Shown piece by piece: positions 11,049-17,401 of a DNA stretch of 64,000 nt. Positions within the stretch are counted from its first letter, which is position 1, and every line of letters starts with the position of its first letter. The notes beneath the pieces are model-generated. The model made no database searches, had not been told where the DNA came from, and was given only the letters and a program-made list of their open reading frames with translations. This DNA is from Bradyrhizobium nanningense (GTDB lineage: Bacteria; Pseudomonadota; Alphaproteobacteria; Rhizobiales; Xanthobacteraceae): assembly GCF_004114535.1 (NCBI RefSeq), contig NZ_LBJC01000032.1, forward strand, positions 1 to 64,000. Reading direction: 5' to 3'. Both the position numbers and the translations under genes were made by a program.

Positions 11049-12725
<1,677 letters not shown>

Positions 12726-12731
12726 ACACGC

Positions 12732-13118
12732 ATGAGCACGGAGGCCGACGTCATCGTTTCCGCCATCATCGCGAAATGGTGCGCCGGCTTCGCGAGCCTC
12801 GATGCAGCCGCGCTGTCGTCGCTGTATGCGAAGAACGCGTTCTTCTTCGGCTCGAACCCGAAACTCTATCGGGGCAGGAGCGGGGTGGCGGACTATTTCA
12901 ATGGCCTGCCGCGATGGCGCCAGCCGAGCGTCGGCTTCTCCGAGGTGGCTGCGGCTCAGGTCTTGCCCGATGTGATTAACATGGCCGCGATCGCATCATT
13001 CGATCTCGACGAAGAGGCCGCGCCGCTCTCGGTCAAACTCACCTGGGTGATCGTGCGCGAAGACGGCGACTGGAAGATCGCGAGCCACCACGTGTCGTCC
13101 AGGGCTGCGCTGATCTAA
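12732..13118 (+). CDS. NTF2-like / SnoaL-type small protein
   Basis: A 128-residue cytoplasmic protein with the cone-shaped NTF2/DUF4440 pattern: an N-terminal helix with FASLDAAALSSLYAKNAFFF, then beta strands ending in KLTWVIVREDGDWKIASHHVS. Members include ketosteroid-isomerase-like enzymes and stress or calcium-calmodulin association-domain proteins; no catalytic assignment is possible. It begins 6 bp after glnS and is probably cotranscribed with it. Confidence 0.8.
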   Translation: MSTEADVIVSAIIAKWCAGFASLDAAALSSLYAKNAFFFGSNPKLYRGRSGVADYFNGLPRWRQPSVGFSEVAAAQVLPDVINMAAIASFDLDEEAAPLSVKLTWVIVREDGDWKIASHHVSSRAALI

Positions 13119-13158: not shown

Positions 13159-13644
13159 CTACAGTTTGTAGCCGATCTTCCTCAGGAGGTCCTTCCGCCA
13201 CGCAATGTCGGCGTCGGTCTCGATACCCAGCGGTGAGGCGCCATCCACTACGCCGAGCACGCCACGGCCGAGCTCGGTTTGCGCGACGATCACCTGCGTG
13301 AGGTTGGCCGTCGCGCAGTAGATGCGGCAGACCTCCGGCACCGAGCGCACGGCAGCTAGGACGTTGACCGGAAAGAAGCCGTCGCCCAGGAAGATCAGAA
13401 AAGTGTGGCCGGCGCCGATGGCTAATGCGTTGTTGCGGGCGTGGGTGAGGGCCGCTTCGTCATTGCCCGACCAGCGCACCAGCCGCTTGCCGGAGGCCTC
13501 GCAGAAGGCCAGCCCGAAGCGGATGCCCGGAACCGTGCCAACCAGCGCCTCGTGGAGGTCTTCCACGGTCTTGATGAAATGCGACTGACCGAAGATGAAG
13601 TTGGCCGCGTCCGGCTTGACGATGGGTACGACGATGAGTTCCAT
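13159..13644 (-). CDS. Adenosine-specific kinase family protein
   Basis: A 161-residue protein that matches the small adenosine-specific kinase family (PF04008) over its full length. Recognisable blocks are QSHFIKTVEDLHEAL, VPGIRFGLAFCEASGKRLVR, ARNNALAIGAGHTF and the C-terminal RKDLLRKIGYKL. The founding archaeal structure binds adenosine and AMP; physiological work in bacteria is sparse. It is the last gene of a three-gene minus-strand operon with a TrpF-like barrel (33 bp upstream) and an RNase Z-like hydrolase. The context suggests nucleotide or nucleoside metabolism, but this is inference. Confidence 0.88.
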   Translation of the reverse strand: MELIVVPIVKPDAANFIFGQSHFIKTVEDLHEALVGTVPGIRFGLAFCEASGKRLVRWSGNDEAALTHARNNALAIGAGHTFLIFLGDGFFPVNVLAAVRSVPEVCRIYCATANLTQVIVAQTELGRGVLGVVDGASPLGIETDADIAWRKDLLRKIGYKL

Positions 13645-13677
13645 GGCCGCGCTCCTCCCAGGGGAGAGCTATGCATG

Positions 13678-14358
13678 TTAGGCCGACGGAAAGCGATTGT
13701 CAGCCGCTGCCCGAGCCGCTTCGTGGAACCGGCGGACTCGCTCCAGGTCCTTGGCATGCGAACCGTCCCGATCCGTCTTTGTCTTGGAGTCGACGCCGGC
13801 TGGACGGACGGTTCGGATCGCTCCTGCGACGTTGTCCGGTCCAAGGCCGCCTGCGAGGACGACCGGAACACGGACGACGTCCACGATGCGGCGACTGATA
13901 TTCCAATCATGCGTCACGCCGAGCGCGCCGATCTGCTTGTCCGTGGACCGATAAGTGTCGAGCAGCAGAAAGTCTGCAATGCCATCGTAGCTTTGGGCAA
14001 TCTCGACGCTTTCCTCGGAGAACACCGGTATGCTTCTCATCACGACGATCCCGGGCAACATGCGTTTGAGCGAAGCAACATCTTGCGGGGAAAGCAGTTC
14101 GGCGCTGGCTCCCAAATGGACGATCGCGGGGTTGAGCTCGCGCGCCCACGACGCAATCAAGGAGAGATCGCGGGTCAGAAACAGTGCCGAGAATTTCGAT
14201 GGCGGTACAATTGCCGCGCCGATCTTGGAAGCCGCTGAGATCGACAGTTCTCGCGGAAATTGGCCGTCTCCGACGAGCACGCCGATATGGTCGACACCAA
14301 TGGCCGAAAGTGCTGACGCCTCTTCGGGGGTGGAGATTTCATAAATCTGGGTCAACAT
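13678..14358 (-). CDS. Phosphoribosylanthranilate isomerase-like protein lacking the catalytic Cys
   Basis: A 226-residue (beta/alpha)8 barrel related to TrpF. The phosphate-binding region VVLAGGLGPDNVAGAI and the C-terminal GVDSKTKTDRDGSHAKD resemble TrpF, and the acid-site strand LLLDT is present. The first strand, normally KICG(L/I)T with the general-base Cys, reads QIYEIST: Cys is replaced by Tyr. Known TrpF chemistry requires that Cys, so ordinary tryptophan biosynthesis by this copy is doubtful. It lies between an RNase Z-like hydrolase (21 bp upstream) and an adenosine-specific kinase (33 bp downstream), away from the trpDC genes at 34-36 kb. Function unknown; it probably acts on a phosphoribosyl compound. 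Confidence 0.8.
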   Translation of the reverse strand: MLTQIYEISTPEEASALSAIGVDHIGVLVGDGQFPRELSISAASKIGAAIVPPSKFSALFLTRDLSLIASWARELNPAIVHLGASAELLSPQDVASLKRMLPGIVVMRSIPVFSEESVEIAQSYDGIADFLLLDTYRSTDKQIGALGVTHDWNISRRIVDVVRVPVVLAGGLGPDNVAGAIRTVRPAGVDSKTKTDRDGSHAKDLERVRRFHEAARAAADNRFPSA

Positions 14359-14379
14359 CGGGCGTAACCTCTCCGAGTC

Positions 14380-15384
14380 TCAGGCGCGAGGTGCCCCAAA
14401 CGCCGCCATCACCTCGGCCAGCATCCGCTCCTGCTCTCCCGCATAGCGCGGAGAGAAGTGAAAGGGCTCGACGCGGCGGACATTGGCTTCTCGTGCGATT
14501 TCTCCGGCAGCCGTGGTGGTAAGATGAGCCCGCTCCTTCGCTATTGCGGCGTCCGCGTCCGCAAACGCCGCCTCGATGAAGAGGATGTCTGCATTCTGAA
14601 TTAGCGCCACGATGGAGGCACGATTGGCCGGCGTGTCGGCAACATCGGTCACATAGGCGATTTTCTGGCCGGCAGTGACCGTCACAAGATCGCGCAGGCT
14701 TGCGAGTGGCACGAGGCGATCCGACTTGGCCGCTTCTTCGATACGGATCAAATGATCTTCCGCGCGACGCTCGACGACGGCCTTCTTTAGCGACAGCAAC
14801 CAGTGTCCGACGGGTAGTCCACGCTCCGAGAGCCTGTTCTTCCATACGTTGACATGGGCCGCCTCCTGCAGCGCAAAGCAGAGGCAGGGCGTGCCATGTT
14901 CAAGGATCGCGGCTGACATGCGATGGGTAGGTTCATCGCAGAGTGCGCCCGCAATGGTCTTACGAGAGCCGGATGGCTCTGCTGCGAAGCCTTTCCTCAG
15001 ATGGAACCGCGTGGCGGAAATGGAATTGTCCGCTCCAAGTTCGCTGACATCGAAAACAAGATCGCAGCGATAGTTTTCGACCAGGTTCCAGCGATAGGCC
15101 TGAAGCTTGTGAAAGACGTGCTCGGCTAAGCCGGGCGGACCGAACAGCTGCACCGATTTCTCGTGCCCGACGAGCAAACGCAGCAGATGGTCAAAGCCAA
15201 CGAAATGATCGATATGCGCATGCGAGACAAAGACCTGGTCGACGCGTCGGATCTTCCGTGGCGCCAGTGAAGCAATCTCTCCAATATCGAACAGCAGACT
15301 TCGCTTCTCGAGCAGCGTTTCGACATAGACCGTCGGATCGCCGTAGCGACCGTTAACGAGGCTCGGATGGAAAAGCGGTCGCAT
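14380..15384 (-). CDS. MBL-fold metallo-hydrolase, RNase Z-like
   Basis: A 334-residue metallo-beta-lactamase-fold enzyme. The zinc motif VSHAHIDHFVGFDHLL (HxHxDH) is near residues 53-68, and the C-terminal HFSPRY is the signature of RNase Z/BN-type enzymes. It lacks an export signal. It is the first gene of the operon with the TrpF-like protein and the adenosine-specific kinase. It could process RNA or hydrolyse a cyclic nucleotide or phosphodiester; the neighbours favour a nucleotide-derived substrate, which is inference only. Confidence 0.85.
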   Translation of the reverse strand: MRPLFHPSLVNGRYGDPTVYVETLLEKRSLLFDIGEIASLAPRKIRRVDQVFVSHAHIDHFVGFDHLLRLLVGHEKSVQLFGPPGLAEHVFHKLQAYRWNLVENYRCDLVFDVSELGADNSISATRFHLRKGFAAEPSGSRKTIAGALCDEPTHRMSAAILEHGTPCLCFALQEAAHVNVWKNRLSERGLPVGHWLLSLKKAVVERRAEDHLIRIEEAAKSDRLVPLASLRDLVTVTAGQKIAYVTDVADTPANRASIVALIQNADILFIEAAFADADAAIAKERAHLTTTAAGEIAREANVRRVEPFHFSPRYAGEQERMLAEVMAAFGAPRA

Positions 15385-15503
15385 GACGAGCTATTTTGCT
15401 GCAACAGTTCCCAATGCGTCTCCCCTCATCTTAGCTGACGGCGATGGATTCCGCACCGGGCAGGACCGAGCTAGAATACATCATTCGGATCGAGGAGAGA
15501 GCC

Positions 15504-15953
15504 ATGAAACTCGTTTCAAGCGCCTTCGCCGATGGTGCCGCAATTCCGCGACGGTTTACCTGTGACGGCGAAAATCTTTCGCCACCTCTGCAATGGAGCG
15601 ACGCGCCGGAGGGGGCGCGGAGTCTTGTCCTGCTCTGCGACGATCCCGATGCGCCTGCCGGCAAATGGCATCATTGGGCAGTCTACAACATTCCGCCGGC
15701 GGTCACGGAATTTGCGATCAACGCTGCGCAGAACGCCAGAATGAAGCAAGCCGTCAACGATTTTCGGAAGGTGGGCTATGGCGGCCCGTGTCCACCGCAT
15801 GGCCATGGGCCTCATCATTATCACTTCCGACTGCTTGCCCTCTCGATCGAGGGCCTGCCGGCAAAGGCCAATGCATCCTGCGCCGACGTCGAGCGAGAGG
15901 CGCGCAAGCACGTGATCGCGGAAGCGACCCTCGTCGGTTGGTATGAGAGGTAG
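15504..15953 (+). CDS. YbhB/YbcL family Raf kinase inhibitor-like protein (PEBP)
   Basis: A 149-residue phosphatidylethanolamine-binding-protein family member. Conserved blocks are the LSPPLQWSDAPEG strand, the ligand-site motif DDPDAPAGKWHHW and GGPCPPHGHGPHHYHF. The start at 15504 has a strong Shine-Dalgarno (GAGGAGAGAG). It is convergent with the glutamine synthetase gene (17-bp gap) and divergent from the RNase Z-like operon. The biochemical role of bacterial members is unclear. Confidence 0.93.
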   Translation: MKLVSSAFADGAAIPRRFTCDGENLSPPLQWSDAPEGARSLVLLCDDPDAPAGKWHHWAVYNIPPAVTEFAINAAQNARMKQAVNDFRKVGYGGPCPPHGHGPHHYHFRLLALSIEGLPAKANASCADVEREARKHVIAEATLVGWYER

Positions 15954-15970: not shown

Positions 15971-17401
15971 CTAGATGTCGTAGTAGAGATGGAACTCGTA
16001 AGGGTGAGGGCGCAGCCGGATAGGATCGACCTCTTTCTTGCGCTTGTAGTCGAGCCAGGTTTCAATCACGTCGGCGGTGAAGACATCGCCGCGCAGCAGG
16101 AATGCGTGATCGCGCTCGAGCGCGTCAAGTGCCTGATCCAGCGATCCCGGCGTCGACTTCACCTCCTTCGCCTCCGCAGGCGGGAGGTCGTACAGGTTCT
16201 TGTCGATCGGGCTGCCCGGGTCGATCCGGTTGTCGATGCCGTCAAGGCCGGCCATCAGCATTGCAGCGAAGGCCAGGTAGGGATTGCAGGACGGATCGGG
16301 TGAACGAAACTCGACGCGCTTTGCGCGTGGATTTGGCGAATACATCGGAATCCGGCAGCAGGCGGAGCGATTGCGCTGGGAGTAGACGAGGTTGATCGGA
16401 GCTTCATAACCCGGAACCAGACGCCGATAGGAGTTCGTGGTGGGGGCGCAAAGCCCGCACAACGCCCAGGCGTGGCTCAATAGCCCGCCGATATAGTAGC
16501 GGCCGAACTGGCTCAACTCGGCATAGTCAGCTTTGTCGTAGAATAGATTGGTCTCACCCCTCCACAGCGATTGGTGAACGTGCATGCCCGAAGCGTTGTC
16601 CTCGAACAGCGGCTTTGGCATGAACGTCGCGGTCTTGCCGTGCTGATGCGCGGTGTTCTTCACCACGTATTTGTAGATCATCAGATTGTCGGCCATGCGG
16701 GTGAGGGTGGTAAAGCGCATGTCTATCTCGTTTTGACCGCCGGTCGCGACCTCATGGTGATGGGCTTCAATCTGGATCCCCAGCGATTCCATCGTCAGCA
16801 CCATTTCGGTGCGTAGCGCCTGCATGCTGTCGGTTGGGGGAACGGGAAAATATCCCTCCTTCGGGCGCGGTTTGTGGCCCAGATTCGGTGCTTCCTCTGC
16901 GCCGGTGTTCCAGCTGCCTTCGCTGGAATCGATTTCGTGCATGGCGTAGTTGATGCCCTGTCCGTAGCGTACGTCGTCGAATACGAAGAACTCCGCTTCC
17001 GGGCCGAAGTAGCTCGTATCGGCCCGCCCGGTGCCCTTGAGGTGGGTTTCGGCTTTCTGGGCTATGTAGCGGGCGTCCCGGCTATAGGATTGGCCGGTCA
17101 CCGGGTCTCTGATGTTGCAGATGAGGACCAGCGTCTTTGCCTGACTATAGGGGTCAACGAAGGCCGTCGCCGGATCCGCGACAACCAGCATGTCGCTTTC
17201 CTGGATCTCCTGGAAGCCGCGGATCGATGAGCCATCGAATCCAATGCCCTCATTGAGGGCATCGGCATTCACCGCGCTTGGCGGGACGGAAAAATGTTGC
17301 CACATCCCCGGCAGGTCGGTGAACCGCAAATCGATCATCTGGACGTTGTCGTCCTTGATCGCCTTCACGAGATCGTCGGCTGTCGCACATTTCGCAACCA
17401 T
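15971..17401 (-). CDS. glnA: Type I glutamine synthetase
   Basis: A 476-residue GSI-beta type glutamine synthetase (ATP + Glu + NH3 to Gln). The beta-grasp domain opens the protein. [10 protein letters not shown] is near residue 52, the metal and substrate motifs [25 protein letters not shown] and [10 protein letters not shown] follow, then the ATP loop with [16 protein letters not shown]. The adenylylation site NLYDLPPAE has its Tyr at about residue 404, so GlnE-type control is possible. A Cys is found in NRSACCRIP, where Ser is usual. No glnB gene is adjacent, unlike the usual alphaproteobacterial glnBA pair, so this is probably a second glnA copy. No sigma-54 promoter was recognised upstream. 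Confidence 0.95.

Follow-up and report, generated by a model that had tools for sequence, protein, structure and literature searches.

A 64,000-nucleotide stretch of the Bradyrhizobium nanningense genome (positions 1 to 64,000 of contig NZ_LBJC01000032.1; hereafter the window) carries three closely packed minus-strand genes. They code for a metallo-β-lactamase (MBL)-fold hydrolase (14380..15384, 334 amino acids [aa]), a barrel protein resembling the phosphoribosylanthranilate isomerase TrpF (TrpF-like; 13678..14358, 226 aa), and a member of PF04008, the "adenosine-specific kinase" family (13159..13644, 161 aa). The gaps between them measure 21 bp (MBL/TrpF-like) and 33 bp (TrpF-like/PF04008), and places and strand agreed with an earlier reading of the same DNA (the original prediction), which had proposed a dedicated pathway of three enzymes. 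Our analysis favors a different interpretation, to which we assign a probability of roughly 55%: the trio is best read as the eroded remnant of a larger island in one Bradyrhizobium lineage, and its TrpF-like protein would be an aldose-ketose isomerase of a separate family, here called Q-I-Y after its N-terminal motif, with no conserved three-step pathway joining the three genes.

The distribution of the genes was surveyed in 146 Bradyrhizobium genomes, the window genome included. A TrpF-like gene was present in 26 of them, the MBL gene in 36, the PF04008 gene in 31, and a gene for S-adenosylmethionine (SAM) hydroxide adenosyltransferase in 13. TrpF-like genes of the window type (at least 86% identity, window counted) occurred in nine genomes and occupied the same site in all nine, where the MBL gene adjoined them in six genomes and lay 1.3 to 3.4 kb away in three. 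In the remaining 17 carriers (60 to 67% identity), the gene sat elsewhere and was near an MBL gene in none, while 8 of these genomes own one. PF04008 was intact at the island site in seven of the nine genomes, truncated in genome G108 and missing in G083, both of which have an intact copy elsewhere. The fullest form was found in G067, with six co-directional genes between glnA and the SnoaL/tRNA synthetase genes: MBL, CapA, amidohydrolase, TrpF-like, SAM hydroxide adenosyltransferase, and PF04008. The amidohydrolase, named by eye and absent from the Pfam scans, was seen in G067 alone, where it could be an insertion. G083 has MBL, CapA, TrpF-like, and SAM adenosyltransferase genes at this site; G118 has MBL, CapA, TrpF-like, and PF04008 genes plus a SAM adenosyltransferase fossil, of which the first 133 and the last 58 bp remain after an internal deletion. 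The bare trio occurs in the window genome and in G141, G104, G128, and G148; these five genomes and G108 lack both CapA and SAM adenosyltransferase at the island.

Because linkage held in 9/9 genomes versus 0/17, and because of the six-gene form in G067 and the fossil of the fifth gene in G118, we regard the trio as a reduced state, which assumes that the fuller forms are older. The island would have been assembled horizontally between glnA and the SnoaL/tRNA synthetase genes in the order MBL, CapA, (amidohydrolase), TrpF-like, SAM hydroxide adenosyltransferase, PF04008; the greater age of the fuller form, the arrival of the genes by transfer, and their co-transcription are what we infer in this account.

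A dedicated phosphoribosyl or nucleotide pathway formed by the three products, to which the SAM hydroxide adenosyltransferase would add adenosine from SAM in the fuller genomes, would agree with the joint retention of MBL and TrpF-like genes, with the seven intact PF04008 copies at the site, and with purifying selection on all three genes (median dN/dS within the lineage, 0.17 for TrpF-like, 0.18 for MBL, and 0.13 for PF04008). SAM adenosyltransferase and PF04008 genes were moreover at most 1 kb apart in 5 of the 10 genus genomes having both; in two of these cases, one of the partners was broken. Such a pathway is nevertheless quite improbable, given the separation of TrpF-like and MBL genes in all 17 other carriers and the piecemeal loss of genes in close relatives. 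In all seven fetched non-island MBL loci of at least 74% identity, the MBL gene adjoins CapA (split into two frames in one), and none has a TrpF-like gene; CapA was not matched in four fetched non-island MBL loci of 42 to 60% identity (L071 to L074). Plasmid neighborhoods were opened for 8 of 39 records from a first search and for 6 of 32 from two later ones, and the latter six stretches, opened around MBL (two) or PF04008 (four) outside the genus, contained no other island gene by similarity, four of the six carrying (incomplete) annotation. Linkage of the three families, whose conservation the original prediction had named as a test, was confined to one Bradyrhizobium lineage, whose fuller members also contain CapA and SAM hydroxide adenosyltransferase, and the proposal of a dedicated three-enzyme pathway is not upheld. 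The adenosine link of the island through SAM adenosyltransferase and PF04008 is suggestive. At L077, L164, L165, L166, and L167, SAM hydroxide adenosyltransferase and PF04008 genes are divergent and within 1 kb of each other, and a gene of 108 to 126 aa with no Pfam match lies between them in L077, L164, L165, and (broken) L167.

The second part of our interpretation concerns the TrpF-like protein itself. It matched PF00697 with 45.7 bits and missed every NCBIfam TrpF cut-off (best score, 87.9 bits versus 216). Its AlphaFold model (pLDDT of 94.4) had TrpF as top structural match (Z of 26.5, root mean square deviation of 2.1 over 203 residues, 25% identity). Profile alignment to Thermotoga maritima TrpF paired Q4-I5-Y6 with K5-I6-C7 and D134 with D126, which confirmed that a Tyr occupies the place of the general-base Cys; C7 and D126 are the catalytic pair of the T. 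maritima enzyme. Columns counted in the same alignment also placed R36 opposite T. maritima Arg36, which presumably contacts the anthranilate carboxylate; over 48 family members, no residue reached 50% in this column. The protein shares with TrpF (PF00697; PDB 1nsj, 1lbm) the fold, the Asp at the D126 place, the glycine-rich GGL loop, and a C-terminal KD motif. In contrast to TrpF, Q-I-Y proteins have Y for C7, mostly E, S, or T for G8, and VDS-T-T for VDvSSGvE; in the window protein, the last strand-loop reads VDSKTKT.

Relatives were collected by a scan of 84,980 species genomes. From 514 stretches encoding relatives, the best 80 were taken, and five plasmid loci were added, giving 85 loci, in 82 of which Q-[IVL]-[YF] replaced K-I-C. 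The other three were L048 (truncated start), L049 (QVAG), and L149, by eye a canonical TrpF beside trpB; L149 was excluded from the context count (84 loci), and L150, L156, L048, and L149 were excluded from the reference list. For the family alignments, 48 and 45 members were chosen. Across the 45 diverse members, Q4, H81, D134, the GGL loop, and D190-S191 with T195 were invariant, and Y6 was present in more than 90%. For comparison, K-[ILFV]-C-G was found in 20 of 20 fetched canonical TrpFs. An initial tree, in which canonical TrpFs came mostly from one order and were a weak control, was superseded by one with 26 canonical TrpFs, 20 of them from 19 of the 20 genomes that carry both the Q-I-Y family and a canonical copy. 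In this tree, a branch supported at 100/99 separated the whole family from the canonical TrpFs; as no outgroup was included, this is a split and not a rooted clade. Among the relatives listed, the family occurred in Pseudomonadota, Thermodesulfobacteriota, Chloroflexota, Bacillota, Actinomycetota, and haloarchaea. On the question raised by the original prediction, the Cys-to-Tyr copies do form a supported group of their own, but this group spans bacteria and haloarchaea and is not tied to the operon of the window. Among the matches listed, the closest named relatives of the window protein were those of Bradyrhizobium sp. cir1 (96% identity) and B. forestalis (88%). Its tree neighbors outside the genus came from Rhodopila, an alphaproteobacterial and a gammaproteobacterial metagenome-assembled genome (MAG), and a plasmid of a Lotus-isolated Mesorhizobium (also an Aminobacter plasmid).

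Of 35 family-bearing genomes, 20 also had a full canonical TrpF (at least 86 bits), and 15 had only copies of about 60 bits or less. We compared trpA in 22 of the 35, namely, all 15 without canonical TrpF and 7 of the 20 with it. A trpA over the cut-off was missing in 14 of the former 15 versus 1 of the latter 7 (Fisher P = 0.0006). The lone trpA-positive genome with the family type only was Micromonospora, in whose phylum PriA mostly substitutes for trpF according to an excerpt of PMC13055916. PF00697 copies were numerous in some genomes, with seven in Neobittarella massiliensis and six in "Candidatus Schneewindia gallinarum"; none of the seven copies in G187 (L112, L127, and L132) and the six in G176 (L096) scored as full canonical TrpF. 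Because 14 of the 15 genomes with only the Q-I-Y type lack trpA over the cut-off, the family is unlikely to serve tryptophan, for which the evidence is indirect but strong, as far as MAG completeness and relatedness allow. Its separation from canonical TrpF in the tree and its presence independent of the tryptophan pathway indicate that the reaction has very probably changed, as originally supposed. The converse, a phosphoribosylanthranilate isomerase that uses another general base and is retained as a spare TrpF, finds some footing in the common fold, in the retained Asp134, and in R36 of the window protein. We consider it very unlikely, since, besides the missing trpA genes, the multiple copies per genome, and the missed TrpF cut-offs, the window genome has its own canonical trpF (C66:443691; 137.8 bits).

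Gene neighborhoods pointed to phosphorylated sugars instead. Of the 84 loci, 27 had a PfkB kinase gene directly downstream on the same strand, and a further 12 had one at another place within the stretch fetched. In the canonical trpF control, PfkB was found in none of 25 loci, in stretches that were shorter (∼3.6 kb) but long enough for direct adjacency to show. In one Oscillospiraceae MAG, TrpF-like and PfkB parts are naturally fused in a single open frame of 529 aa (L141, 8001-9587). Among 114 neighbor proteins sampled from 232 listed, 23 were PfkB and 12 IU_nuc_hydro, and the next family reached 3; the alignment of unrelated proteins was used for this bulk scan only. Nucleoside hydrolase genes, recognized by similarity to one hydrolase, occurred in 9 loci, and PnrA-type transporters, a nucleoside-uptake family, in L111, L047, and L113. 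Two further neighborhoods were seen. In Rhizobiaceae (L044 1669-8672, L045, L046, L125, L126, L129 to L131, and L152), the TrpF-like gene follows an RpiR regulator and diverges from genes for a sugar ABC transporter, a PfkB kinase, and a pyridoxal phosphate enzyme of the Cys/Met gamma-lyase type, which together may make up a catabolic set. In loci of Desulfobacterales and of one deltaproteobacterial MAG related to them (L135, L137, L143, L151, L153, L155, and L157), it stands beside a gene of 509 to 551 aa that resembles GMP synthase (by eye in L157); L153 also has an EF-P gene.

Our best guess for the Q-I-Y protein is aldose-ketose isomerization of phosphorylated ribose or ribosides. The candidate substrate would be ribose 5-phosphate or a ribosyl-5-phosphate conjugate, whose ring would be opened as in TrpF by the acid Asp134 and the phosphate-binding C-terminal half, and Tyr6 or a neighboring residue may take over the role of the Cys as base. 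The adjacent or fused PfkB kinase would supply the 5-phosphorylated substrate; this step would apply to the PfkB-linked loci, as the window lineage has no attached kinase. More tentatively, the family could be a new group of isomerases, annotated as TrpF, that opens PfkB-supplied 5-phosphorylated ribosides (N-, O-, or C-linked) in nucleoside breakdown, its chemistry possibly being reused in C-riboside pathways with enzymes like β-ribofuranosylaminobenzene 5′-phosphate (RFAP) synthase and, for the window lineage, in an island that is related to adenosine and supplied by SAM hydroxide adenosyltransferase. A similar logic is known from haloarchaea. In their pentose bisphosphate pathway, the ribose-1-phosphate kinase is of the PfkB type, and the isomerase has another (eIF2B-like) fold. 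An excerpt of PMC9700705 describes the pairing of a kinase with an isomerase of 5-phosphorylated ribose in nucleoside breakdown. A difference is that, with a cut-off of 330 bits for ribose-1-phosphate kinase, the best of the kinases tested here reached 146. The PriA/AdeK phosphoribosyl isomerases are likewise barrel enzymes of phosphoribosyl compounds recruited to nucleoside pathways, but, by an excerpt of PMC13055916, they are of HisA type and from Actinomycetota, and none of our tests made them members of the Q-I-Y family.

An action on C-ribosides in particular would convert a C1-aryl ribose 5-phosphate, delivered by an enzyme like β-RFAP synthase, into a 1-aryl-1-deoxyribulose 5-phosphate within a methanopterin-like or C-nucleoside pathway. 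An RFAP synthase family gene precedes the TrpF-like gene by 3 bp in L142 and L147, adjoins it on the upstream side in L148, and follows it directly in L093. The plasmid cluster L042 encodes a TrpF-like protein with 68% identity to the window protein and has such a gene 7 kb away, together with diverged PurC, PurH, and NUDIX genes, and PsuG/IndA genes were found near L095, L121, and L049. The gammaproteobacterial and plasmid loci with such RFAP synthase-like genes are among the nearest relatives of the window protein outside the genus. According to the literature, the RFAP synthase-like ForT forms the C-C bond of formycin, and excerpts of PMC13055916 describe nucleoside antibiotic clusters that contain the PriA-type AdeK, as well as a trpF in the vicinity of the showdomycin cluster. 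As an explanation of the family, this specialization is rather unlikely: the adjacent RFAP synthase gene was limited to 4 of the 84 loci, the methanopterin marker MCH was present in one of three genomes with a tight RFAP synthase pair, and neither MCH in the window genome nor RFAP synthase in the window was matched. Methanopterin as a general role was rejected with MCH in 1 of 12 genomes scanned, and a C-nucleoside role for the window gene itself was rejected for want of an RFAP synthase match in the window. Separately, clusters of RFAP synthase-like, diverged PurC, PurH, NUDIX, Rieske, amidohydrolase, and TrpF-like genes were observed in L207 (16754-29994; NZ_AP023260.1), L043, and L093 (405-9770). 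This plasmid cluster of Lotus-isolated Mesorhizobium and Aminobacter, partly common to the gammaproteobacterial MAG, resembles C-nucleoside (formycin-type) sets.

That the TrpF-like protein acts without catalysis, as a binding or regulatory protein, is suggested by the missing catalytic Cys and by the broken state of a second copy in the same genome. We hold this for highly improbable, as Q4, H81, D134, GGL, and VDS-T-T are (nearly) invariant over the diverse members, the window gene is under purifying selection, and a kinase fusion exists. The second copy (G000:C70:188714-189366; L040 7715-8367) is frame-broken.

Several observations weigh against the interpretation of an eroded island with a Q-I-Y aldose-ketose isomerase. 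The co-retention of MBL and TrpF-like genes in all nine genomes with low dN/dS leaves space for a shared function. Three of the 14 trpA-lacking genomes showed weak sub-cut-off matches, the trpA comparison covers, among the genomes having canonical TrpF, 7 of 20, and incompleteness of MAGs could conceal trpA. The six neighboring kinases tested missed all NCBIfam equivalog cut-offs, their nearest models being IolC, fructokinase, ribokinase, and, in some, ribose-1-phosphate kinase. Many kinase-linked loci are from MAGs of related Clostridia and Chloroflexi, so that they represent fewer events than loci. Moreover, no PfkB gene adjoins those of the nearest relatives of the window protein, and their contexts are diverse, those in Bradyrhizobium lying in varied places. 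Finally, the substrate assignment is drawn from sequence and gene context.

The partners of the TrpF-like protein fitted their predicted labels in part. With an HxHxDH motif at residues 55 to 60 and a C-terminal HFSPRY, the MBL protein resembles RNase Z, and it passed the model of the RNase Z-like subfamily NF002558 (391.1 bits; cut-off, 315). It fell far below the cut-off of RNase Z proper (TIGR02651; 105 to 111 bits versus 292.95), which another protein of the genome passed (G000:C74:29799-30686; 293.9 bits). By these scores the MBL protein is a member of the RNase Z-like subfamily and not the RNase Z of this genome. The PF04008 protein is a full-length family match (237 bits; gathering score, 25) and aligned end to end with Thermus thermophilus TTHA1091 (PDB 1vgg), which bears out its family membership. 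The kinase activity is another matter: according to excerpts of PMC10248530, PAE2307 binds adenosine and AMP, the T. maritima protein formed no AMP, and that of T. thermophilus cleaved ADP. On this account the activity of the family is disputed and not settled, and "adenosine kinase" is a doubtful name for PF04008 proteins.

Around the trio, a PEBP family gene (15444..15953, plus strand) is the divergent neighbor of the MBL gene, followed by the island flank glnA, coding for glutamine synthetase (15971..17401, minus strand). The opposite flank consists of the SnoaL-like gene (12732..13118, plus strand) and, further out, a gene for a glutamine/glutamate-type tRNA synthetase (tRNA-synt_1c; 11049..12725, plus strand). 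The PEBP gene also adjoins MBL in four of the seven fetched non-island loci and lies 2.2 kb off in one more. GC content at third codon positions was 0.66 to 0.69 for PEBP, MBL, and TrpF-like, 0.83 to 0.89 for PF04008 and the tRNA synthetase side, and 0.76 to 0.79 on the glnA side. These differences are in line with separate origins.

Antiphage defense was considered and rejected: PADLOC gave no match at an E value of 0.01 for the trio, CapA, amidohydrolase, SAM adenosyltransferase, or the fusion. No TrpF-like match was found among 50,697 phage records. Among the papers searched, none linked phosphoribosylanthranilate isomerase with formycin or "TrpF-like" with a gene cluster. Papers pairing the isomerase with pseudouridine, or with nucleoside hydrolase and ribokinase, dealt with other topics by their titles and the beginnings of their abstracts, and the "TrpF homolog" literature concerns PriA, going by an excerpt of PMC13055916.

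In annotated records, the Q-I-Y family is named after the tryptophan enzyme, and TrpF models are its best match; copies in trpA-less genomes would lead automated models to predict a pathway step that does not exist. Its kinase fusion and nucleoside hydrolase neighborhoods offer a direct and cheap route to the substrate. For Bradyrhizobium, the island would be an example of a tight "operon" left by gene loss, in which close spacing alone is no proof of a pathway.

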